Below, piece after piece: positions 5,319-24,732 of a stretch of 64,000 nt of DNA. The translations under genes were made by a program, and so were the position numbers. The notes beneath the pieces were generated by a model. It was not told the origin of the DNA. It did no database searches and worked only from the letters and a program-made list of their open reading frames with translations. This stretch comes from Chlorogloea purpurea SAG 13.99. Its GTDB lineage: Bacteria; Cyanobacteriota; Cyanobacteriia; Cyanobacteriales; Microcystaceae. Where the stretch lies: contig JADQBB010000010.1 in NCBI GenBank assembly GCA_016903695.1, positions 1 to 64,000 of the forward strand. The letters are read 5' to 3'. Within the stretch, counting starts at the first letter, position 1. Every line of letters begins with the position of its first letter.

Positions 5319-6020
5319 ATGAAATTTCTCATCCAGAAAGAAGGAGAGCGAAACTGGCTATCGCTCGATTCCTCCGGTACTTTACAAGAAGGGAAATACC
5401 GTATCGTCGCCGAGTCGGATTATCGTCAACAAGACGTGGAAATCTGCATCACCTACGAAGGTTATACAGAGCGATCTTATCAGAGCGATCGACAGATCTA
5501 TCATCGTCGCAGCAATGACCAAGGATTGATCATGGTGATTCCTTACACCTATCTCGGCCCCGGCAATTGGGAAATTCGTTGTCATAGCGATGTGATGTCA
5601 GATTTCTTGGGGGAAGGTTGGCAGGAAACTCAACAGTTAACCGTCATTCCCCTATCTTCCCAAACGCAACCATCAAACCCTCATTTAGAATCTTATAAAG
5701 CCCGATTGGCAGAATTGATCAAAACGGAAATAGAACCTTTCTTACTGGCGCAGGCGGAGAAAGGGGAAGAGGGGGAAAAAGGGGAAGCGGAAGTGATCAC
5801 GATCGAGTTAGCCGATACAGCCACTAATTCTTATAGGTGTTTCGATTTTGCCATACCTCACAACTCCAGTGCTATTTGCCTCGATTTACCCCAATTAGAG
5901 CCGGTAAGTAGCAATCTAGCTTTCACCCCCAGTTTACCTTCTCTCCCACCCAAATTAGCCGGTAAAACCGCTAACAGCCCGAAAAAATCGCCGCGATTGC
6001 CTTCTTTACCGGCTAGATAA
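5319..6020 (+). CDS. cyanobacterial protein of unknown function
   Basis: A 233-residue protein if the ATG at 5319 is used; a TTG at 5289 would add ten residues. The first 115 residues are probably beta-rich (MKFLIQKEGERNWLSLD...). A linker with a Glu/Gly/Lys-rich low-complexity stretch (around 145-160) follows, and the tail is rich in Pro/Leu/Ser with repeats of the LPSLP type. It has no signal peptide, membrane helix or known catalytic motif. It may be a shortened member of a longer modular cyanobacterial family, but I do not recognise the function. It begins 47 bases after hisS and converges with the peroxiredoxin gene. Confidence 0.6.
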   Translation: MKFLIQKEGERNWLSLDSSGTLQEGKYRIVAESDYRQQDVEICITYEGYTERSYQSDRQIYHRRSNDQGLIMVIPYTYLGPGNWEIRCHSDVMSDFLGEGWQETQQLTVIPLSSQTQPSNPHLESYKARLAELIKTEIEPFLLAQAEKGEEGEKGEAEVITIELADTATNSYRCFDFAIPHNSSAICLDLPQLEPVSSNLAFTPSLPSLPPKLAGKTANSPKKSPRLPSLPAR

Positions 6021-6022
6021 TT

Positions 6023-6574
6023 TTAGGAATGGGCTTGTAATTGGTTCAAGCGCACCAGAACTTCGGCGCTATGAATAGCCGGTTGAACACCTAAAAATCT
6101 CTCCCGTAAGATACCCTCTGGATCGATGATATAAGTGTGACGTGAAGACGCGACCCCCAGCCATGACCCGTATGCTTTACTTACCTCTCCTTTCGTATCC
6201 GCTAAGAGGGGATATTTTAATCCCTCCGAGTCGCAGAATTCGGTGTGAGAATTTACATCATCGGCGCTAACACCTAATATTTGGGCATTTTTAGCGATGT
6301 ATTTGGGTAAGTCTTTCTGAAAACGTTGTGCTTCCAAGGTACAGCCGGGGGTGAAGTCTTTGGGATAAAAATATAAAACCACCCATTTGCCCCGGTAATC
6401 CGCGAGGGAAACGTCGCCATCTCCCGTATTACTGGGTAGGGTGAAATCCGGCGCTGGTTGATTTAATAGGGGTTGTTTACCTCCCATGGCGTAGGCTTCT
6501 GACAGGGGAGTGAAACCGAGGATCAAGCCCAAGAAAAGGGCGGCGCATAAACTGAAAAATTGACGACGGGACAT
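6023..6574 (-). CDS. PrxQ/BCP-type thiol peroxidase, exported
   Basis: A 183-residue AhpC/TSA-fold peroxiredoxin with an N-terminal signal sequence (about 1-29, basic MSRRQ then hydrophobic), so it probably works in the thylakoid lumen or periplasm. The peroxidatic Cys is Cys78 in DFTPGCT. The usual PrxQ resolving Cys five residues later is Gln here; the only other candidate is Cys114, in EFCDSEG. It would reduce H2O2 or lipid peroxides using a thiol donor. It lies 22 bases downstream of the sensor-kinase-like gene, probably as one transcript. Confidence 0.88.
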   Translation of the reverse strand: MSRRQFFSLCAALFLGLILGFTPLSEAYAMGGKQPLLNQPAPDFTLPSNTGDGDVSLADYRGKWVVLYFYPKDFTPGCTLEAQRFQKDLPKYIAKNAQILGVSADDVNSHTEFCDSEGLKYPLLADTKGEVSKAYGSWLGVASSRHTYIIDPEGILRERFLGVQPAIHSAEVLVRLNQLQAHS

Positions 6575-6596
6575 AGGCTAATTATAATAACTGCTT

Positions 6597-7910
6597 TTAT
6601 AAGTTACTATTTATCCGGGGTAAAATTACGGTGAATGTGTTGACGTAATAGGTGCTGTTCTCGATCGGTTCGCTGTCTACTTTCACCTTGCCATCGATTA
6701 ATTCCACCAAACCTTTGACTAGGGCTAATCCTATTCCCGTTCCTGCGATCGCTTGTTCTGTAATCCCCGTACCTCGCCGGAATGGTTCAAAAATTTGAGT
6801 TTTCTCCTCTTTACTAATACCCAAACCCGTACTCATCACTTTAATTTCTAGAAACTTTTTCGCTTCTGGCGGGTGATCTGATATTATCAAGTGAACTTTA
6901 CTTTGTTTAGAAGAAAATTTCCCAGCATTACTCAATAATTCATGTAATATTTTACTCAAATGCTGGGGATCAGTTTTGATTTCTCTATCAGGGCACGAGC
7001 GATTATCTTCGATCACGAACTCCAATCCTTTACGGGAATCTTCTCGCCACTGTTGAGCGAAACTTTCTGTATTTTTATAAAGCAATTCTAAAATATTTAC
7101 TGTTTGTAAGTTAACCGTTAATTCTTGTGATTTCAATTGTTTTAAAGCGATGATATTATTAATTAAATCGTTGAGCGTATTCCACTCGTGCTTGATAATT
7201 TTCCAGTAATTTTCTTGGGATTTAGCGGGTAACTTTCTTTTATTATCGCTGAGAGCATCGATCGCCATTTTCAAAGTTGCCAAGGGATTTCTCGCTCGAT
7301 CGCTCACCGCGGCTATAATATCATCCTTGATTTCGTTTAGTTGGCGTTGTTGCTCGAACTGTCTTCGCATTAACTGCCGCAGACGATTAACGAGAGGGCT
7401 ATTCTGTCCGGTATTATTCCTACTGCCTTGGTTAAACCCGATACTAGGTGACATTTCCGCTTGCGGCCCGACGACCAGGGCAATGGCCGCTAAATAACCG
7501 GCCGAACGAAAAATTAGTTGTTTATCTTCCGTCCAGAAATTCTTCAGGCTACTGCTAACTAATAAAATCCCCGTGGGTTTGCCCCTCGTATCTAATCTCA
7601 TGGCTAAACATTGACCTAATTGAGGCGCATCGGGAATAAGGCACGGTTCATTACTCAGCACGATGGATTCGATTAAATCCAAAGACAAAATCTTCTCCGG
7701 GGTAATAGATGAATTATCTTCATTACTCCAAAAACCCTCACAGCATAAAAAATCATTGTGTAACCCGGTGAGGATGACGCTAAGGTGGGCGTTTAAATAT
7801 CTACCTATAGTCTCAGCAATTACCGACAGCAAATTAGAGTTATCTTCACCATGATAAATTAAATCGATCAAGGAAGTTTCTAAATGGGAATATTTCGGAG
7901 CGTTTTCCAT
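6597..7910 (-). CDS. GAF/HATPase sensor kinase-like protein, probably a pseudokinase
   Basis: A cytosolic 437-residue protein from the ATG at 7910. Residues about 20-150 look like a GAF-type sensor region, a coiled segment follows, then a HisKA-like helix pair and an HATPase domain (about 310-430). The phosphorylation helix reads AAVSDRARNPLATLK where active homologues have S-H-E-L-R-T-P-L: the phospho-accepting His is Asp. In the HATPase domain the N-box Asn survives (HELLSNAGKFS) and the G2 region is intact (GTGIGLALVKGL), but the G1 box reads STGLG, with Ser instead of Asp. It probably binds partners or ligands rather than phosphorylating a regulator. It is co-directional with the peroxiredoxin. 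Confidence 0.8.
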   Translation of the reverse strand: MENAPKYSHLETSLIDLIYHGEDNSNLLSVIAETIGRYLNAHLSVILTGLHNDFLCCEGFWSNEDNSSITPEKILSLDLIESIVLSNEPCLIPDAPQLGQCLAMRLDTRGKPTGILLVSSSLKNFWTEDKQLIFRSAGYLAAIALVVGPQAEMSPSIGFNQGSRNNTGQNSPLVNRLRQLMRRQFEQQRQLNEIKDDIIAAVSDRARNPLATLKMAIDALSDNKRKLPAKSQENYWKIIKHEWNTLNDLINNIIALKQLKSQELTVNLQTVNILELLYKNTESFAQQWREDSRKGLEFVIEDNRSCPDREIKTDPQHLSKILHELLSNAGKFSSKQSKVHLIISDHPPEAKKFLEIKVMSTGLGISKEEKTQIFEPFRRGTGITEQAIAGTGIGLALVKGLVELIDGKVKVDSEPIENSTYYVNTFTVILPRINSNL

Positions 7911-7995
7911 ATCTTTACAGGTTATTAATACCAAAGGTTAATAATCCCCCACATATTTATTATGATAGATTTTTTAATTATCCATGAGAGAGAAT

Positions 7996-9504
7996 TCACG
8001 CAGATGGTAAACCTAAATCCACGGCTATTCTGTGACCGCAAGCGAACCCAGAAAAAGCCACCGCGTTCAAACCCTGTCCTGGAAAAGTGCTATCGCCGAC
8101 ACAGTATAGATTTGGTACTACGGTACGATTGAAGGGCATTCCCAATAAACCCAATAATTTATGACGGGGAATCGGCCCGTATGTCCCATCTTCACGACCT
8201 AAAAAGCGTCTATGGGTTCTGGCCGTGCCTACTTCCATGTAATCCAGGGAACTCGATAAACCTGGGAAAATATGTTCTAACCTTTTAATCAGTAATTGTG
8301 CCGATTCTTCTTTTCTTTCCCCGTACTCTTTACTATCTAGATTCTGCCAGCGCTCGATCGAACTGGGTGTGAAAGCGTGGATGATATGATAACCCTCCGG
8401 CGCCAGACCGGGATCGAGTAGAGTCGGTATAGATACGAAAATCGTTCCTTGTTCCCCTTCCATATTACCCCAATCTTCCAAAAGGATGTGATGGCACTCT
8501 GTACCCGGAGGTAGTAAATCGGCTTTAACCCCCAGATGTAGACTCAAGAAACTGGGAGATTTCTGATAGCGCTTTTGCCAACGTTGTTCGCGGCGCGGCA
8601 ATTCCGACTCCGGTAGTAATTTTTCAAAAGTATCCCAACGGGTGGCATTAGAAACGACGCGTTTGGCATAATACTTTTCTCCGGTGGCTAACTGCACGCC
8701 CACGGCTTTTCCCTTATCTAGCAGGATTTCTTTGACCCTAGCTTTATATTTAATCTCGCCCCCGGCTTTCTCCAAACCGTGAGTTAATGTTTCCGCTATT
8801 TTTCCCACTCCACCTTTAGGGTAATTGATGCCGCCGTAATGACGATCGCTGAATACCATCCCGGCGTTAATCATCGGCGTTTTATCTGCTGGGACTACCG
8901 ACCAACAATAACACTCCATATCGATAAACTTTAGTAGGCCTGGGTCTTTTATGTATCTTCTCGCCACATCCCCGGCGTTTTGTGGTAAATACTTCACCAA
9001 ACCCAGGCAAGCCCTTGGATGGGCGAAAAATACCCGCATTAAATAGCCGATCTCTTCCAAGGAAAGTAATTCCATCGCGTTGAGACAATTAAACACCCGC
9101 CAGCACTCATCGTAAAATTGTCTGATACCTTTGGCTTCATGGGGAAAATAAGCGATCAGTTCTTGCAAGAATTTCTCATAATCTCGATGCACTTTCAAAT
9201 CTAATCCGCCTGGTAGATGATAATGGATCTGTACAGGGTCGGCAATAGTTTCTATACTGGTATTAACAGCAGACAGAGCACGGGTTAGTAGATTAGTAGT
9301 GCCTTTTTTGCCGAAACCGAAGATCATGGAAGCACCCACGTCAAAGCGATAACCCTTCCTCTCGAAATATCCTGCGCTACCACCGGGGATGATATATCTT
9401 TCTAAAACTAATACCTTAGCTCCTTTAGCCGCCAGTTGCGTCGCCGTTACTAACCCGCCGATTCCCGAACCGATGACTATCACATCGTAATGATTAGTCT
9501 GCAT
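7996..9504 (-). CDS. crtH: carotenoid (prolycopene) isomerase CrtISO
   Basis: A 502-residue FAD-dependent oxidoreductase of the phytoene-desaturase superfamily. It has the dinucleotide-binding motif GSGIGG at 12-17 followed by [20 protein letters not shown], and the C-terminal FAD motif [18 protein letters not shown]. Length and sequence match cyanobacterial and plant CrtISO rather than CrtP, CrtQ or CrtI. It converts tetra-cis-lycopene from the CrtP/CrtQ pathway to all-trans-lycopene for carotene and xanthophyll synthesis at the membrane. Two Fur-like palindromes lie about 150 bases upstream. Confidence 0.93.
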
Positions 9505-9652
9505 ATTTTATATTGTTTTGTTATTTCAATCTTCTAGTTTATCCTGATCGGGAAGACAAAAAAAATGGATACCGTTTTTAGAGACTGCCAGCCGGTTCCA
9601 TCTTCAATCCTTCCTGTATAGAGGAGAACACTATAGATAAATATAAACTTAT

Positions 9653-9689
9653 TGAAAATAATTGTCAATACTCTTGAGAATAATTAGCA
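9653..9689. promoter_or_regulatory. two tandem Fur-like boxes upstream of crtH
   Basis: TGAAAATAATTGTCA (9653-9667) and TGAGAATAATTAGCA (9675-9689) both resemble the 7-1-7 Fur palindrome TGATAATNATTATCA; the first matches 13 of 15 positions with symmetric mismatches. The centres are 22 bp apart, about two helical turns, as expected for cooperative dimers. They lie just past the 3' end of the rhomboid gene and upstream of crtH. Confidence 0.45.
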
Positions 9690-9697
9690 ATAAATTC

Positions 9698-10396
9698 TTA
9701 ATCTTGATCGGATAATAATCCCAGGAGGGGGCCGAGAATAGCGCCGAACACGAAGCCGCCTGCGTGGGCCCAGTAAGCGATACCACCGCTTTCCATGCCG
9801 ACATTAACGGCTACGCCCAGATTGGCGAAACCGTAGAAAGCCTGTTGGAGAAACCAGAAACCAAGGAAGAAGAAGGCGGGGACGCGGAAAGTCCAGAAGA
9901 AGAAACCGAGGGGAATCAGGGTGAGGACTTCGGCATTGGGAAAGCGGAGGATATAGGCCCCCATGACACCGGCGATCGCTCCACTGGCACCGAGGGAGGG
10001 TATATTAGAACCGGGGGAAAAATACCATTGAGTGAGGGCGGCAAGGGCCCCGCAGGCGAGATAAAAAATCAAAAATTTCACATGACCTAGTTTATCCTCG
10101 ACGTTATTGCCGAAAATCCACAGGAATAACATATTACCCCCCACGTGCAGAAAACCGGCGTGAAGGAATTGGGAAGTAAATAAAGTCCAGAATTCGGGAA
10201 CCGGTTGGGCTAGGGGGTATCCAGAGAAAGAAAGGCTTAATTGCTTTGGCACGACGGCGAAGAGTTGAAAAAATCCCTCTAGTTGGGGCCCGGAGAGAGT
10301 CAATTCGTAGATAAAGACAGCGATATTGGCAACGATCAGCGTATAGGTGACGTAGGGAGTAATCGCGGTGGGGTTATTATCGCGTAAAGGAACCAC
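9698..10396 (-). CDS. rhomboid family intramembrane serine protease
   Basis: A polytopic 232-residue inner-membrane protein, GTG start. The rhomboid catalytic elements are visible: Asn88 in HVGGNML, the Ser138 nucleophile in GASGAIAG, and His211 in YWAHAGGFVFG, all within predicted helices. About six transmembrane segments are expected. Rhomboids cut substrates inside the membrane; the substrate here is unknown. It is divergent from psbQ, with about 100 bases between them. Confidence 0.9.
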   Translation of the reverse strand: MVPLRDNNPTAITPYVTYTLIVANIAVFIYELTLSGPQLEGFFQLFAVVPKQLSLSFSGYPLAQPVPEFWTLFTSQFLHAGFLHVGGNMLFLWIFGNNVEDKLGHVKFLIFYLACGALAALTQWYFSPGSNIPSLGASGAIAGVMGAYILRFPNAEVLTLIPLGFFFWTFRVPAFFFLGFWFLQQAFYGFANLGVAVNVGMESGGIAYWAHAGGFVFGAILGPLLGLLSDQD

Positions 10397-10500
10397 TTAA
10401 AAAAACCTCTCTTTCATTTGCTTTATATTTTACAAAAAGTCTTCAATACTGAGACAATCAGTAGTAATCTATGAGTGCATTCAATCGTTAACATAAACCA

Positions 10501-10941
10501 ATGCCACGTATTCGATCGATACTATCTCTCATTTTGGTACTAGTGACGGGCTTCCTCGTCAGTTGCGGCGGGCCCGAAGTTGCCATCCCTACTACTTACA
10601 GCCCTCAGAAAATTGAGCAATTACAAGTGTATGTAGCGCCTATTTCAGCCGCTAGAGAACAAATGGAAGAGTTGGCCAGTTTGATCAGTTCCAAAAACTG
10701 GGTAGATACCCGCACCTTCATCCACGGGCCTTTAGGTGGATTACGTCAGAGTATGACGGGGCTTTCCCGCAGTCTCCTACCCAAAGACCAAGACCAAGCC
10801 CGTCAATTAGCGAAGAATCTTTTCGTTCACTTTGAACGTATTGACGCAGCGGCTAAAGAAAAAGATTTTAGCGCCGCGGTCAATCAATATCAAGAGGCGT
10901 TAAAGGACTTTGATGCTTTCTTGAAGATCGTACCTAGTTAA
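10501..10941 (+). CDS. psbQ: photosystem II lipoprotein PsbQ (CyanoQ)
   Basis: A 146-residue lumenal lipoprotein. Signal peptide 1-21 ends in the lipobox LVSC, so Cys22 is lipidated. The mature part is a helical bundle with the conserved W and HGPLGGLRQSM region and the C-terminal AVNQYQEALKDFDAFLK helix. CyanoQ binds the lumenal face of PSII and helps stabilise the oxygen-evolving complex. It is monocistronic, with a good terminator right after the stop codon. Confidence 0.93.
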   Translation: MPRIRSILSLILVLVTGFLVSCGGPEVAIPTTYSPQKIEQLQVYVAPISAAREQMEELASLISSKNWVDTRTFIHGPLGGLRQSMTGLSRSLLPKDQDQARQLAKNLFVHFERIDAAAKEKDFSAAVNQYQEALKDFDAFLKIVPS

Positions 10942-10948
10942 GTCCCCG

Positions 10949-10976
10949 AAACCCTCGGATGTTCCCGGGGGTTTTT
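10949..10976 (+). terminator. Rho-independent terminator of psbQ
   Basis: Stem AACCCTCGG / CCGGGGGTT around a short loop, followed by TTTTT. It covers an in-frame ATG at 10959, which argues that the next gene starts later, at 10983. Confidence 0.65.
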
Positions 10977-10982
10977 AAATTT

Positions 10983-12059
10983 ATGATGAGGATATTAATT
11001 ATCGGTGCGGGGGTTATCGGCGCAAGTATCGCCTACGAACTAAGTAGGGTGAAAAATCTGCAAGTTACCCTGATTGATTCCCACGGGGCCACCGAGGGAG
11101 CAACTTGCGCCGCCCTGGGGGTACTGATGGGGGTTATCAGTCATAAGACGAAGGGGCGGGCTTGGAAATTAAGACAGAGTAGTTTAGAACGTTATCGGAC
11201 TTTAATTCCCGAATTGCGATCGCTCACCAATCTTCCTATCGCCCACAATCAGCAGGGTATACTCATGTTGAGAACCGACACGGAAGACCGATGGGAAAAG
11301 TTAGTGACGATACGTCAATCCCAGGGTTTTTCATTGGAATTATGGGATAGGGAAAAGCTTTATCGTTTCTGTCCTGAAGTGGATAACCCCAGACTCACGG
11401 GGGCTGTATATTCCCCCCAAGATACACAGATACATCCAGGTCAACTGACTGCCGCTCTCGTCGCCGGCGCGGTGAAAAACGGCATTGATTGCCGATTCGG
11501 GGTTACGGTCGAGAACATAATCGCCTCCGGGGATAATCGCCGGGCCGAAGCAATACTTACTAGCGATGGAATTTATCAATTCGATCGACTCGTGATTTCC
11601 GCCGGCTTGGGGTCTACAGCTTTGAGCGATAATAGTATTGAATTGCGTCCCGTCTTGGGGCAAGCCTTAGAGATGAAATTACCTTCCCCTTTAGAAACCG
11701 GATCTTTCGCCCCGGTAATCACGGGAGAAGATGTGCATATAGTACCTCTGGGCGATTGTCGCTACTGGGTGGGGGCCACCGTGGAATTCCCCGACTTTGA
11801 CGCGGGAGAAGTGCATCCCGAAACGGGATTGTTAGAAGGAGTGCGACAGAAAGCGATCGATTGGTGTCCTGGATTAGCTCTTGGTACTATAGAGCGTACA
11901 TGGTGGGGAAAAAGACCCAGACCGCACGATCGACCCGCCCCGGTAATCGAAACCCATCCCGACTACGATAATATCTTATTCGCTACCGGTCACTATCGTA
12001 ATGGGGTTTTACTAGCGCCCGCCACGGCTTCGATTATTAAAGACATGATAATCTGTTAA
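10983..12059 (+). CDS. FAD-dependent amine/amino-acid oxidase (DadA/ThiO-like)
   Basis: A DAO-fold flavoprotein of 358 residues (ATG at 10983; a second ATG follows directly). N-terminal Rossmann motif GAGVIGASIAYELS, then EGATCAALGVL. The C-terminal segment ends WWGKRPRPHDRPAPVI and ATGHYRNGVLLAPATA, the pattern of glycine oxidase/ThiO and related D-amino-acid dehydrogenases. ThiO makes the glycine imine for the thiazole half of thiamine in many cyanobacteria, where it can be fused to ThiG; here it stands alone. The exact substrate is not resolved. Confidence 0.8.
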   Translation: MMRILIIGAGVIGASIAYELSRVKNLQVTLIDSHGATEGATCAALGVLMGVISHKTKGRAWKLRQSSLERYRTLIPELRSLTNLPIAHNQQGILMLRTDTEDRWEKLVTIRQSQGFSLELWDREKLYRFCPEVDNPRLTGAVYSPQDTQIHPGQLTAALVAGAVKNGIDCRFGVTVENIIASGDNRRAEAILTSDGIYQFDRLVISAGLGSTALSDNSIELRPVLGQALEMKLPSPLETGSFAPVITGEDVHIVPLGDCRYWVGATVEFPDFDAGEVHPETGLLEGVRQKAIDWCPGLALGTIERTWWGKRPRPHDRPAPVIETHPDYDNILFATGHYRNGVLLAPATASIIKDMIIC

Positions 12060-20252: not shown

Positions 20253-20498
20253 ATGAATATTTTCGGTATTGGTCTCCCAGAGATGGCTGTAATTTTCGTG
20301 ATCGCTCTACTGGTGTTCGGCCCGAAAAAACTGCCCGAGATCGGGCGTAGTCTAGGCAAAACCATTAGAGGATTCCAAGAAGCCTCGAAAGATTTTGAAA
20401 CTGAATTTAAGCGAGAGGCCCAACAAATAGAAGAATCGGTACAAATGAACGCACGATTAGAAGAAGGGAAAAAAGAAGAATCAATCAACAATAGCTAA
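20253..20498 (+). CDS. tatA: Sec-independent protein translocase TatA
   Basis: An 81-residue TatA/E-type pore subunit: MNIFGIGLPEMAVIFVIALL gives the short membrane helix, then the hinge FGPKKLPEIGRSLGK, an amphipathic helix, and a charged tail. It forms oligomers with TatC to export folded twin-arginine proteins across thylakoid and plasma membranes; UrtA in this window carries a possible twin-arginine signal. Confidence 0.93.
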   Translation: MNIFGIGLPEMAVIFVIALLVFGPKKLPEIGRSLGKTIRGFQEASKDFETEFKREAQQIEESVQMNARLEEGKKEESINNS

Positions 20499-20726: not shown

Positions 20727-21353
20727 ATGAGTGAACAGAGTCCCTATGAACAACTAGGGGTGACGGAAGAATCATCCTTTGAAGAAATTCAAGAAGCAAA
20801 GCAAAGACTGCTTCAACAGTATGAAAATGACGTTAAAATAACGGAAGCCATCGAAGCTGCCTACGATGCGGTGATAATGGATCGTCTGCGACTGCGACAG
20901 GAAGGTAAAATTAAAGTGCCCGATCGGATTCGCTTTCCCGAACGCAGTCCCGCGCCCAAACCAGAAAGTAAGCCGCTTATTTCCAATCAATCTCCGGGTT
21001 GGTTGCGCGGCTTGATCGATACCCCCAGCGCTAGAGACATCGGTATACCAGCAGCCGTGTTCGGCTCTCTCGGTGCGGCGAGTTTAGTGATACCCGATCG
21101 TGCTGGGTCTCTCTCGCCTTTACTCCTGTCCTTGGGAGTATTCGCCGCCATTTATTTCCTCAACCGCAAAGAAAAACGCTTCGGGCGATCGGTATTGTTG
21201 ACTTTTTTATCTCTAGTGTTGGGAGTGGCGTTAGGGGCCGGTGTCGGCAGCGTGGTTAAATCGGCCGGGGTCGCTATCCCGGTTTCCGGTCAGCAACTCT
21301 ACGCTTTGATAACTTTTCTTTTATTCTGGGTGAGTAGTAGCTTTCTCCGTTAG
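20727..21353 (+). CDS. CPP1-like (DUF3353) chaperone-like membrane protein
   Basis: A 208-residue protein. The first 70 residues form a J-like domain without the HPD motif (SPYEQLGVTEESSFEEIQEA), and three to four membrane helices fill about 105-207. The family includes plant CPP1/CDF1, which stabilises protochlorophyllide oxidoreductase; that role is a family-level hint, not shown here. An optimal AAGGAGGT precedes the ATG by 7 bases. It is convergent with, and slightly overlaps, the HAD gene. Confidence 0.85.
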   Translation: MSEQSPYEQLGVTEESSFEEIQEAKQRLLQQYENDVKITEAIEAAYDAVIMDRLRLRQEGKIKVPDRIRFPERSPAPKPESKPLISNQSPGWLRGLIDTPSARDIGIPAAVFGSLGAASLVIPDRAGSLSPLLLSLGVFAAIYFLNRKEKRFGRSVLLTFLSLVLGVALGAGVGSVVKSAGVAIPVSGQQLYALITFLLFWVSSSFLR

Positions 21354-22066
21354 CCAATGGTAGGTGCAACGCTCACACCCGTCAAGGTCTCGCTCGTGAT
21401 TAAATCTACCGCTTCCGCCAAGTTGTTAACGATAAAATCCGGTTCGTATCGCTCTAATTGGGAACGATTACGAATCCCGGATAATACGGCGATTATTTTC
21501 AGACCCCCGGTTTTTGCGGCTATAATATCGGCTTCCGTATCTCCCACCATCCAAGTCTCTCCTACTTCTGGTAATTCTTGTAACGCTCTTGCCATCAATA
21601 AAGGCTTATCTTCGATGTCTTTGGTTTTGATGTAATCGTCGCTCAGGCAGTAGCGATGATCCGGGGCGAAGAAATGCCCTAGCTCATACTGTTGCAGGGC
21701 TAAATCCAGTTCAGAAACCCGCCGCATGGTCATCACCACTAGATCCCACCCCAGGGCCTGAATATTTTCTAGCACTTCGATCGCTCCTGGGAGCGGACGA
21801 TCGTAGACTAGATAAGGTAAAGTGTGAACCGTTTGACGGCGTAAACTCGAAAAAACTTGAGCCTGTTCCTCGTCCAATCCAGATAACTGCCCGATACGAC
21901 GTTCGGGAACACAATCCCGCTTCAATTGCCAAAACTCTTCCTTGGATAACCCGGTGAGGTTTTTCCCCGCTTGTTGGGCTTGTTCTAGACAATATTGATA
22001 CACACGATAATAGCGTTCTGATACGTCCATGATCGGTCCATCAAAATCAGTGATCAGTCTCAGCAT
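21350..22066 (-). CDS. HAD-superfamily hydrolase
   Basis: A 238-residue HAD-fold enzyme. Motif I is DFDGPIMD near the N-terminus (nucleophile Asp), motif II the Thr in VVMTMRRVS, and motifs III/IV are K...GETWMVGDTEADI. A four-helix cap (about 15-85) suggests a phosphoglycolate-phosphatase-like small-molecule phosphatase. Motif I has Pro-Ile where many members have Thr-Leu. The substrate is unknown. Its stop overlaps the end of the CPP1-like gene by 4 bases. Confidence 0.82.
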   Translation of the reverse strand: MLRLITDFDGPIMDVSERYYRVYQYCLEQAQQAGKNLTGLSKEEFWQLKRDCVPERRIGQLSGLDEEQAQVFSSLRRQTVHTLPYLVYDRPLPGAIEVLENIQALGWDLVVMTMRRVSELDLALQQYELGHFFAPDHRYCLSDDYIKTKDIEDKPLLMARALQELPEVGETWMVGDTEADIIAAKTGGLKIIAVLSGIRNRSQLERYEPDFIVNNLAEAVDLITSETLTGVSVAPTIG

Positions 22067-22115: not shown

Positions 22116-23081
22116 TTAGCCAGCGGTAATGGACTCCGATCGCTCTGCGCTTTCTGAAAGAGGTGATTTGACCTGGCTCACCTTGGCACGATACAAAAGC
22201 TTTTCACTCTGACGGTAGCCCACGTAGCGAACCACCACTGTAGATATATTATCGGCATCTCCCTCCATCAGTTGATGAATTTGCGGATCGTAGACTACTT
22301 CTTCCCCCACTTGATGAATTTGTTCTATTCCCCATCGCTCGAGCAGATCGATAACGGGTTTAACGAGGGCTAACAATTTTACGGCTGACAGTTGCGGATT
22401 CTTGCGCGCCACGGCGACCGCGGTGGGCCATTGTAAAAGCCACGATTCCAAAGTTTCTATACTAGCCGATTGAAATTCCCGGGTTAATTCTTCTCTTTGT
22501 CGAGCGTACGCCTCTTGTAAATTGTGATATGCAGATTGTCGTTCTCTTAAAAGCGAATTGGCTAAATCTAATCTGGTATTTAACTGGTTTAGTTGGTACT
22601 CGAGGTTTTTTATCGCCTCATTTTCGTGGGACTCGATAGACTGTAATTTATTCTCCTGCTCCTGTTTAATTCGTCGCAGCTCATCAATTACTGCTTGTGA
22701 TTCTTGTATTTTCTGCTCTAAACTATTTTTTTCCTGTTGATATTGCCAACTCAGGTTAGTGACATTTTCTTGAGCTGTTCGTAATTCTGCCCGTAAATTT
22801 TCCGCTGCTTCTAAACTGAGGAATTCTTCCTGAAAATTACCGATATTACCAGTATAGTCACTGAACTTAGTCAGAAAGTCTTGAAAGGGTATTTCTAGAG
22901 TTGCCGCTAATCGGGCGAGAGTCTCCAAGGGTAAACGGGGTATCAAACCCGATTGTAAACGATATAGCTGCCACTGGGAAACTCCCGAAAGCTCGCTTAA
23001 ATGTTTAATATCAACACAATTAATCTTATCCATTAATTGGCGTAATTCTTGGCGATTATTCTGGTAGATGGATTGATTCAT
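22116..23081 (-). CDS. HTH - coiled coil - GrpE-like protein
   Basis: A 321-residue protein with three parts. Residues about 20-72 form an XRE/Cro-type helix-turn-helix (IKHLSELSGVSQWQLYRLQS). About 90-205 is a long coiled coil rich in Glu/Gln/Leu. About 205-305 resembles the GrpE head, with IDLLERWGIEQIHQVGE, YDPQIHQLM and a final VVVRYVGYR..KLLYRAKV beta segment. GrpE releases nucleotide from DnaK; an HTH on such a protein could couple chaperone state to transcription, but that is inference. It is 4 bases downstream of the sulfiredoxin gene. Confidence 0.7.
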   Translation of the reverse strand: MNQSIYQNNRQELRQLMDKINCVDIKHLSELSGVSQWQLYRLQSGLIPRLPLETLARLAATLEIPFQDFLTKFSDYTGNIGNFQEEFLSLEAAENLRAELRTAQENVTNLSWQYQQEKNSLEQKIQESQAVIDELRRIKQEQENKLQSIESHENEAIKNLEYQLNQLNTRLDLANSLLRERQSAYHNLQEAYARQREELTREFQSASIETLESWLLQWPTAVAVARKNPQLSAVKLLALVKPVIDLLERWGIEQIHQVGEEVVYDPQIHQLMEGDADNISTVVVRYVGYRQSEKLLYRAKVSQVKSPLSESAERSESITAG

Positions 23082-23085
23082 AAGG

Positions 23086-23349
23086 CTATGCTAGATGTTT
23101 TTGGAGAACCGAACGAGGGGCATGGCGGACACGGCAAACGATGGTTTCTTTACCGAGACGTTGATGGGCTTCGTAGCGATGACAGCCGGAGAACCCATAG
23201 TATTCTCCTTCTACGAACAAAACATCGATCGGCTCTCTCAATCCTTCCCAGGCTATGGATTGCATCAAAGACTGAACTTTTTCCGGATCGGTTTGTCGAG
23301 GTAGGGGGCGATGAATACTAACAAGAGGAATTTCTCTGATCTCTACCAT
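23086..23349 (-). CDS. srx: sulfiredoxin
   Basis: An 87-residue ParB/Srx-fold protein with the catalytic motif FSGCHRYEAHQRLG, in which the Cys in GCHR reduces overoxidised (sulfinic) 2-Cys peroxiredoxins using ATP. The length fits cyanobacterial Srx. It starts the pair srx - HTH/GrpE-like. The link with oxidative stress agrees with the peroxiredoxin elsewhere in the window, although PrxQ types are not the usual Srx substrates. Confidence 0.88.
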   Translation of the reverse strand: MVEIREIPLVSIHRPLPRQTDPEKVQSLMQSIAWEGLREPIDVLFVEGEYYGFSGCHRYEAHQRLGKETIVCRVRHAPRSVLQKHLA

Positions 23350-23502
23350 ATTAGTTGACTATTTATCTATCCATCTCAATCATAATCGGTCTTGGATGAC
23401 GGAGATCACACGCCCAGTAGATTGGAGTCACCTCCTTTTTAGGGAAAATATGAGTAAATATTAAGTATGAACGTCCCTCACTATCCAATATTAGTATGAC
23501 AG

Positions 23503-24732
23503 ATGGTAGATGTAGTCTTGAATCCTAATCAAAAAATATCAACTATTTTGACAGACCCATTCAATCGGAGTGAAGTTTCGGAACTGTCTTCGCAAGTAAT
23601 TGACTTCAACGCCTCAAAACAAGCGAGTCTGTTCCAGAAAATCAAACAGCGGGAGTATAGCGGTAAGCTCATACTTACGGATAAAAAAGGCATTCAGTCG
23701 ATACTATATTTTTATGTGGGACGTATCGTGTATGGTAACGGTGGCACTCATCCTTTAAAACGTTGGCAGAGACATTTAGCGCAACACTGTCCTTATTTAG
23801 TGGGTGAGTCGGATAATTTTCGCAATAGTAGTTTTGTAACTAACACACCTTTCCCCATTAACTGGGAATACTTTCTATTAACCGAATGGACGAAGCAGCA
23901 AGTCCTGAGTTTAGAACAAGCGGTAGCTATAATTCGTTCCGTTACAACAGAAATACTGTTTGATCTAACCCAAGCGGGGCAAGTCAGCTTTTACCGGCAA
24001 CCGGAAAGACTCGACGGTTTTACTCCCTTGACCCTGGTTAATAACGAACAATTAATAGCGGAAGTATGGAAACAGTGGCAAGATTGGCAAAACGCTAAAT
24101 TAGCGGATAGATCCCCTAATAGTTCACCGATCGTGAAAAACCTTGAAGAATTGACTAATAGAACTTCGCCCCTCACAGGTCAGTTACTAACTCAACGTCT
24201 TAACGGGGAAAGTACCCTGAGAGATTTAGCCGTTTCCCTCAAGCAAGATGTGACAGTTCTAACCCGTTCATTAATGCTTTACGTTCAACTGGGATTGATC
24301 GATTTAATCTCGGTTCCCGATTTAGAATCTGCCCAACCAAAACCTCTACCTGCCAAATCTTCTAAGTCTCCCTCTTTAACGATCGCCTATTGTGACGAAC
24401 AAGAACAGATGTGCCGGAAGATGGCCGGCATTATCGAACAAACAGGTCATAACTGTGTCGTAGTTCAAGACGGCTTACAAGCTATTTCTATGTTCGTCGA
24501 ACAAAGACCCCATATAATCTTTTTGAACACCCAACTGCAACACACCGACGGTTACACGATCTGTCGCGCTCTACGTCAATTAGCGATTTTCCAGAATACG
24601 CCTATATTAATGTTCGCTGAAAACGTGGGACTCACCGATCGTATTCGCGCCAAGATGTCCGGGGCGTGGGAAATAATCGACAAATCGGCCTCGAAAGAAA
24701 TTATCCATCAAATTATCGCTAAATACTCATAA
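23503..24732 (+). CDS. PatA/PixG-family response regulator (DUF4388 + receiver)
   Basis: A 409-residue protein. The N-terminal 230 residues match the PatA-type N-terminal/DUF4388 region (SLFQKIKQREYSGKLIL...LYFYVGRIVYGN), a helical linker follows, and a receiver domain occupies about 290-409. The receiver keeps an acidic patch (YCDEQEQM) and Lys (IDKSA), but the phospho-acceptor position is Asn342 (IIFLNTQ) instead of Asp. Relatives control phototaxis, pilus motility and heterocyst patterning. It is a single gene with no adjacent CheW, MCP or kinase. Confidence 0.82.
   Translation: MVDVVLNPNQKISTILTDPFNRSEVSELSSQVIDFNASKQASLFQKIKQREYSGKLILTDKKGIQSILYFYVGRIVYGNGGTHPLKRWQRHLAQHCPYLVGESDNFRNSSFVTNTPFPINWEYFLLTEWTKQQVLSLEQAVAIIRSVTTEILFDLTQAGQVSFYRQPERLDGFTPLTLVNNEQLIAEVWKQWQDWQNAKLADRSPNSSPIVKNLEELTNRTSPLTGQLLTQRLNGESTLRDLAVSLKQDVTVLTRSLMLYVQLGLIDLISVPDLESAQPKPLPAKSSKSPSLTIAYCDEQEQMCRKMAGIIEQTGHNCVVVQDGLQAISMFVEQRPHIIFLNTQLQHTDGYTICRALRQLAIFQNTPILMFAENVGLTDRIRAKMSGAWEIIDKSASKEIIHQIIAKYS

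Follow-up and report, generated by a model that had tools for sequence, protein, structure and literature searches.

Genes at the locus

We analysed a 64,000-nucleotide stretch of DNA from Chlorogloea purpurea SAG 13.99 (contig JADQBB010000010.1, positions 1 to 64,000; hereafter the window). On its minus strand, a sulfiredoxin gene (srx) is followed by a gene at 22116-23081 whose product combines a helix-turn-helix (HTH) domain, a coiled coil and a GrpE-like head, and which we call HG (Table 1). A sequence-only reading of this DNA had described a sulfiredoxin gene four bases upstream of an HTH/coiled-coil/GrpE-like protein, and phmmer and Pfam searches together with AlphaFold2 (AF2) modelling bore out this description. 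The two genes are probably cotranscribed in the window.

Table 1. Features of the srx-HG locus, with positions in the window
Feature	Position	Strand	Basis and remarks
srx, eukaryote-type sulfiredoxin, 87 aa	23086..23349	-	PDB sulfiredoxins matched by phmmer (E 1e-24 to 1e-12); HG neighbour in 50 genomes
Srx active-site motif FSGCHR, residues 53-58	23176..23193	-	Translation and alignment to 6ky4
Spacer separating srx from the divergent response-regulator gene, likely promoter of srx-HG	23350..23502	.	No recognisable FurC/PerR box (best match, 5 mismatches)
HG, 321 aa	22116..23081	-	ATG 4 bases past the srx stop (spacer CCTT)
HG Cro/C1-type HTH, residues 13-71	22869..23045	-	Pfam HTH_26; Foldseek C.BclI, SinR, DdrO; conserved Q38, R41, G45
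HG long unbroken helix, a coiled coil that continues as the first helix of the bundle, residues 83-227	22401..22835	-	AF2, alignment, periodicity
HG second short bundle helix, residues 234-249	22335..22382	-	AF2
HG GrpE-type beta-wing domain, residues 252-303	22173..22328	-	Pfam GrpE; AF2; Foldseek GrpE 1dkg/3a6m/8gb3/4ani
HG motif YDPQIHQL, equivalent to (F)DPxxHEA in GrpE	22269..22292	-	P266 and H269 invariant (66/66)

The phmmer search matched the window Srx to Arabidopsis Srx (6ky4) over nearly the full length, with an E value of 1.4e-24 and 89 bits, and to human Srx with an E value of 4e-14. The product of srx also shows the features that define sulfiredoxins, a ParB/Srx fold sequence with an F(S/G)GCHR active site, and the gene at 23086-23349 on the minus strand thus appears to encode a genuine sulfiredoxin. 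In the window's assembly, which is 78.6% complete, the sole peroxiredoxin with a C-terminal Prx domain is a 1-Cys Prx, whereas the genomes of most family members carry two peroxiredoxin genes with this domain. Because of this difference, the assembly probably lacks the substrate of Srx, an over-oxidisable typical 2-Cys peroxiredoxin. Elsewhere in the window, we noted a gene for a peroxiredoxin of PrxQ/BCP-like type, probably exported by a signal peptide (6023-6574, minus strand), which adjoins a histidine-kinase-like gene (6597-7934).

Scanning HG with Pfam gave 29.8 bits for HTH_26 at residues 13-71 (cut-off 22) and 28.9 bits for GrpE (PF01025) at residues 148-302, a modest score against the curated cut-off of 25.8. 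HTH_26 was present in all 18 relatives scanned and GrpE, at E<=0.01, in 15 of the 18. The coil showed a heptad-type hydrophobic periodicity as high as in none of 2000 permutations, and residues 85-205 contained neither Gly nor Pro. In the family alignment, the coil of the window protein was about 75 residues longer than that of most relatives; long-coil members were also found in two genomes of another family (frames of 294 and 315 aa).

Divergently from srx runs a DUF4388/response-regulator gene (23503-24732). A HAD-type hydrolase gene (21350-22066, minus strand) lies 49 bases downstream of HG and possibly shares its transcript; it was not among the common neighbour families at the loci of the best 80 of 309 HG relatives. 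Further along, a CPP1-like, J-domain-like membrane protein (20727-21353, plus strand; Pfam 1.3e-67) is encoded near a tatA-like gene (20253-20498).

Predicted fold of HG

We modelled the window HG as a monomer with AF2, using an input alignment of 66 family members. The model had a mean pLDDT of 88.2 and placed the HTH helices at residues 3-73, two further helices at residues 83-227 and 234-249, and strands at residues 252-303; the linker at residues 76-84 was flexible, with pLDDT below 50. In this predicted structure, HG has the layout of GrpE, with the HTH replacing the disordered GrpE N-terminus. A Foldseek search of the PDB returned GrpE structures first (9a81, 3a6m, 8gb3, 1dkg and 4ani; probability 1.00, E about 1e-3) and HTH proteins of the XRE type second (C.BclI, SinR and DdrO). 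Structure prediction had been proposed as the check on the GrpE-like head, and the retrieval of GrpE crystal structures by a model of pLDDT 88 came out in its favour.

For a short-coil member from Nostoc (L088), the AF2 monomer reached a pLDDT of 93.7, and its top Foldseek match was the GrpE-DnaK structure 1dkg, with a TM-score of 0.52 by target length; XRE repressors again ranked after GrpE. Across HG models, TM-scores to GrpE ranged from 0.34 to 0.52 by target length, the low values perhaps reflecting a long helix that bends differently. Sequence similarity to canonical GrpE was weak (hhalign E 4e-5), and a PDB sequence search with the HG profile reached GrpE at an E value of 0.18 only. We rejected the idea that the GrpE match is a mere coiled-coil artefact, because the alignment continues through the beta-wing and GrpE was retrieved even with a short-coil member.

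Conservation at both ends of the protein

Five residues (P266, H269, G288, Y289 and K300) were invariant in all 66 HG members. Position 265 was D or N in 65 of the 66 and is the counterpart of the D in the FDPxxH motif of GrpE, in which, according to the GrpEL1-mortalin structure, D and P touch Hsp70 (PMC11685456). Within the HTH, Q38 was conserved in 63/66 members, R41 in 55/66 (with K in five more) and G45 in 66/66. Since DNA-facing positions in the HTH and positions in the beta-wing are both conserved, selection has preserved both ends of HG.

No Cys column was common to more than 8 of the 66 members, and we therefore discarded a Cys-based redox sensor as a general mechanism. The sequence-only reading had also cast HG as a regulator that might read redox stress, a suggestion for which this lack of a conserved Cys left no support.

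Spread of the family and linkage with srx and dps

Matches to the HG family were found in 117 of 292 genomes sampled from the phylum, a count that includes genomes matched through paralogs only. GTDB contigs yielded 309 relatives, and the best 80 of these 309 were all cyanobacterial. Both srx and HG occurred in 60 sampled genomes, and in 50 of them srx preceded HG in the same orientation at a distance of less than 2.6 kb; in four of the other ten, the two genes were on separate contigs. By our own arithmetic, random placement in a 5-Mb genome would give such proximity in about 0.03% of genomes. Conservation of the pair, which had been named as a point on which the idea of a chaperone-linked regulator could fail, thus held. 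Given the spread of the family across cyanobacteria and the conserved pairing with srx, both the HG architecture and the pairing are well beyond chance.

In the window and in Microcystis, srx and HG are 4-13 bases apart. Many filamentous forms have a gap of about 0.6-1 kb, which is occupied by a Dps/ferritin gene (PF00210). Such a Dps gene was present in 21 of the 37 named loci having srx, and absent from this position in the window.

Conversely, 45 genomes of the sample carried HG with no detected srx, and genomes of the Crocosphaera type retain HG without srx. These cases would fit an account in which the linkage is incidental synteny kept by descent and HG has a general role unrelated to stress. 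We consider this very improbable, because the order, strand and short distance are the same across many families, and the gene inserted between srx and HG, Dps, is a further oxidative-stress gene.

By inspection of domain names, we also noted a partner-switch module adjoining HG in filamentous forms. It consists of a gene for a STAS-type anti-sigma antagonist about 0.5 kb downstream of HG in the same direction (L016, L022, L084 and others) and, convergent to it, a receiver/PP2C-type (RsbU-like) gene; these occurred in 22 and 31, respectively, of the loci of the best 80 of 309 relatives.

Control of the locus

We compared 49 srx upstream regions, and most of those from outside Microcystis contained the element TCATAACGAGTATGAT with 0-3 mismatches (as a rule 0 or 1), in the majority of cases at about 40-60 bases ahead of the srx start; shuffled controls gave 4-7 mismatches. 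In L009, L020, L022, L054, L056, L088 and others, this very well conserved box overlaps the srx -10 region. The element agrees with the published FurC (PerR) box of Anabaena, for example CGAACTCATAACGACTACG before ntrC (PMC10406281), and binding of FurC to the srxA promoter has been reported. Upstream of srx in the window (5 mismatches) and in Microcystis (6-7 mismatches), a FurC/PerR box was not found above shuffle level, and because of this absence control of srx has probably been rewired there.

As the conserved element upstream of srx is a FurC/PerR-type box, peroxide control of srx would have no need for HG, and wherever the box exists this control seems better assigned to FurC/PerR. A search upstream of the HG genes for dyads and shared k-mers gave nothing clearly above shuffles, and no shared operator was found. 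We set aside, as a default, the model in which HG represses srx through a conserved palindrome in its promoter, since that palindrome is the FurC/PerR box and is absent from the window and Microcystis, which both carry HG. Control of srx by HG, raised earlier through the suggestion that the protein might bind the srx promoter, accordingly went unsupported: the element fits FurC/PerR, the window lacks it, and no operator for HG emerged.

Paralogs of HG adjoin Hsp70 genes

Many genomes encode a second HG-related protein (hhalign E 7e-42 to HG), the heads of the two being mostly 30-42% identical. In 13 of 20 loci inspected, the gene for this closest paralog of the HG head adjoins an HSP70-family gene (PF00012, E 5e-8 to 5e-36), an association that is new in this analysis. 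The two genes are usually directly adjacent; one small gene intervenes in L119, and the Hsp70 frame is broken in L114, one of the 13. Two further loci among the 13, L130 (2166-4450) and L131 (3978-6462), hold a pair of head and short Hsp70 in GC-rich genomes that belong to the phylum but not to the window's class. Because the pair also occurs there, its association appears to be old or transferred.

By inspection, several paralogs begin with a hydrophobic segment resembling a membrane anchor. The HTH is kept in L116, L121, L122 and L129 and lost in L117 and L118; with some paralogs having lost it, the HTH is dispensable in the Hsp70-linked branch. The units at L116 (3610-5960), L121 (1436-3837), L122 (3625-6059) and L129 (2325-4912) each consist of two genes: one encodes an HTH-coiled coil-GrpE-head protein that probably has a membrane anchor, the other a short HSP70-family protein of about 520-540 aa. 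We know of no function for such two-gene units.

In a tree of the heads, which rests on few columns and has long branches, HG formed one clade (97/97), with the paralogs closer to it than canonical GrpE. Gene order links the head family with Hsp70 and HG itself with srx; no Hsp70 gene adjoins HG. Because the closest paralogs adjoin HSP70-family genes, the head of HG probably still serves an Hsp70. The earlier description of the protein as chaperone-linked is strengthened by these 13 of 20 loci. Of the interpretation as a whole, the architecture and the srx pairing held, the chaperone link gained strength, and the redox reading and the control of srx went unsupported.

Another notion makes HG an XRE-type regulator of the ordinary kind, in which the head derived from GrpE is now off Hsp70 and serves as a dimerisation or ligand domain. 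Its HTH scores as well as its head, the head lies far from canonical GrpE in the tree, and HG has no Hsp70 neighbour, all as this notion would have it. We nevertheless judge it unlikely, since the beta-wing residues at the DP motif that contacts Hsp70 (contacts as in PMC11685456) are near-invariant and the sister paralogs still adjoin Hsp70 genes.

The window's genome also has a canonical GrpE (G000:C14, 138 bits), whose gene precedes a DnaK frame. HG is thus a GrpE-type protein additional to the main GrpE beside dnaK, and it belongs to a separate clade. The short Hsp70 of the paralogs was not found in this genome, where the best matches, DnaK proteins included, were just 25-33% identical. Partnering of HG with that short Hsp70 was rejected on this ground. 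Elsewhere in the genome, L150 (G000:C30:72000-84000) holds at 5380-11871 a block of three Hsp70-like genes, among which lies a gene for a GrpE-like protein of 421 aa; a protein-kinase-like gene adjoins the block, and one of the Hsp70-like proteins has, by inspection, a VWA-like tail. The block has the look of a chaperone-based system that is possibly related to conflict (compare PMC7159879).

Proposed role of HG

Sequence and model together indicate that HG is a GrpE-family protein with its own putative DNA-binding domain, encoded in a candidate peroxide-repair operon. Our best reading is that it acts as a peroxide-stress-linked, DNA-binding GrpE homolog that would couple the state of Hsp70 to a DNA target or would serve as a DNA-tethered exchange factor; binding of both Hsp70 and DNA is inferred. 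As a component of the peroxide response, HG would be produced alongside sulfiredoxin and, in many relatives, Dps. Its long helices would form a parallel dimer, with the two HTH domains seated on a palindromic DNA site and the GrpE-type bundle and beta-wing available to an Hsp70 (DnaK). An Hsp70 on the head would then change DNA occupancy or transcription, a direction of control that we infer, and specific genes might thereby respond to the load of damaged, Hsp70-bound protein; the head may in addition free clients from Hsp70 locally. For the central proposal, that engagement of the head by Hsp70 alters DNA occupancy or transcription and so couples the load of damaged protein to genes in the peroxide response, we estimate a probability of roughly 45%. 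In its favour are the conserved residues at both ends, the predicted GrpE fold, the Hsp70 neighbours of the sister paralogs, the linkage with srx and dps, and the induction of srxA and all4145 by H2O2 in Anabaena. Against it are the missing shared operator, the FurC/PerR-type box before srx, the weak similarity to canonical GrpE, the lack of an Hsp70 gene adjoining HG, the genomes that carry HG without srx, and the loss of the HTH in some paralogs.

Next in likelihood comes a possibility that we hold with some doubt, namely that HG is a dedicated nucleotide-exchange factor working with DnaK in recovery from peroxide stress, its HTH being merely a tether or dimerisation module with no part in gene control. 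Srx would reduce over-oxidised 2-Cys peroxiredoxin, and HG would drive the release of Hsp70 from the peroxiredoxin or from damaged clients. In yeast, Hsp70 is drawn to over-oxidised peroxiredoxin, and the over-oxidation is undone by sulfiredoxin (PMC8004198); such an exchange factor would fit this finding, which also counts in favour of the central proposal. The GrpE fold with its conserved DP..H beta-wing motif, the Hsp70 neighbours of the paralogs, the retention of the head by paralogs that have lost the HTH (L117 versus L116), the conserved operon with srx and dps, and the absence of a shared operator in the search upstream of the HG genes also speak for it. However, HTH_26 occurs in 18/18 relatives with recognition-helix positions conserved, which a mere tether would not need, and the same genome already has a canonical GrpE with dnaK.

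Returning to the preferred reading, in which Hsp70 acts on HG at its DNA target, we tentatively extend it to a cyanobacterial class of DNA-bound GrpE homologs that would report Hsp70 occupancy to promoters, with one branch tied to srx and dps, and hence to peroxiredoxin repair, and another membrane-anchored with its own short Hsp70. This generalisation is doubtful in our estimation; if it is true, a single protein would connect protein damage with transcription. If the head does bind Hsp70, HG would combine a GrpE-type factor and a DNA-binding domain in one molecule, and a search of the open-access literature returned no functional description of an HTH-GrpE protein of this kind.

Comparison with known systems

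Like GrpE (PF01025), the nucleotide-exchange factor of DnaK, HG is predicted to have a long helix, two short bundle helices and a beta-wing, and it carries the DPxxH and GY motifs. It differs in having an HTH at its N-terminus in place of a disordered tail, in being encoded with srx instead of dnaK, and in forming its own clade. With the Cro/C1 (XRE) regulators SinR, DdrO and C.BclI, HG shares the HTH fold and the pattern of the recognition helix. Among the structures and families searched, no regulator of this type had a GrpE head, whereas HG has one.

The resemblance to the HspR/DnaK system of Streptomyces is one of logic only, in that Hsp70 would set the output of HG, a putative DNA-binding protein. 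HspR has another type of HTH and no GrpE fold. The HTH of HG is of the Cro/C1 type and its gene stands beside srx, unlike HspR, which is encoded in the dnaK operon and for which DnaK is cited as corepressor (PMC2687793).

A locus in the model strain Anabaena PCC 7120 is probably the same one. There, H2O2 treatment raised srxA (asl4146) by log2 8.2 and the adjacent dps gene all4145 (Dps2) by log2 6.5 (PMC4518582), and one proteomics paper calls all4144 'probably a chaperon' (PMC8147232). Judging by gene order, all4144, the next tag after all4145, is probably the HG ortholog. The consecutive tags srxA-all4145-all4144 would match the srx-dps-HG order of other cyanobacteria; the window differs in lacking Dps at this position. 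The conserved operon for a sulfiredoxin and a predicted GrpE-fold DNA-binding protein makes it possible to ask, in Anabaena PCC 7120 and other tractable strains, whether peroxide repair is directly linked with the Hsp70 cycle and with transcription.
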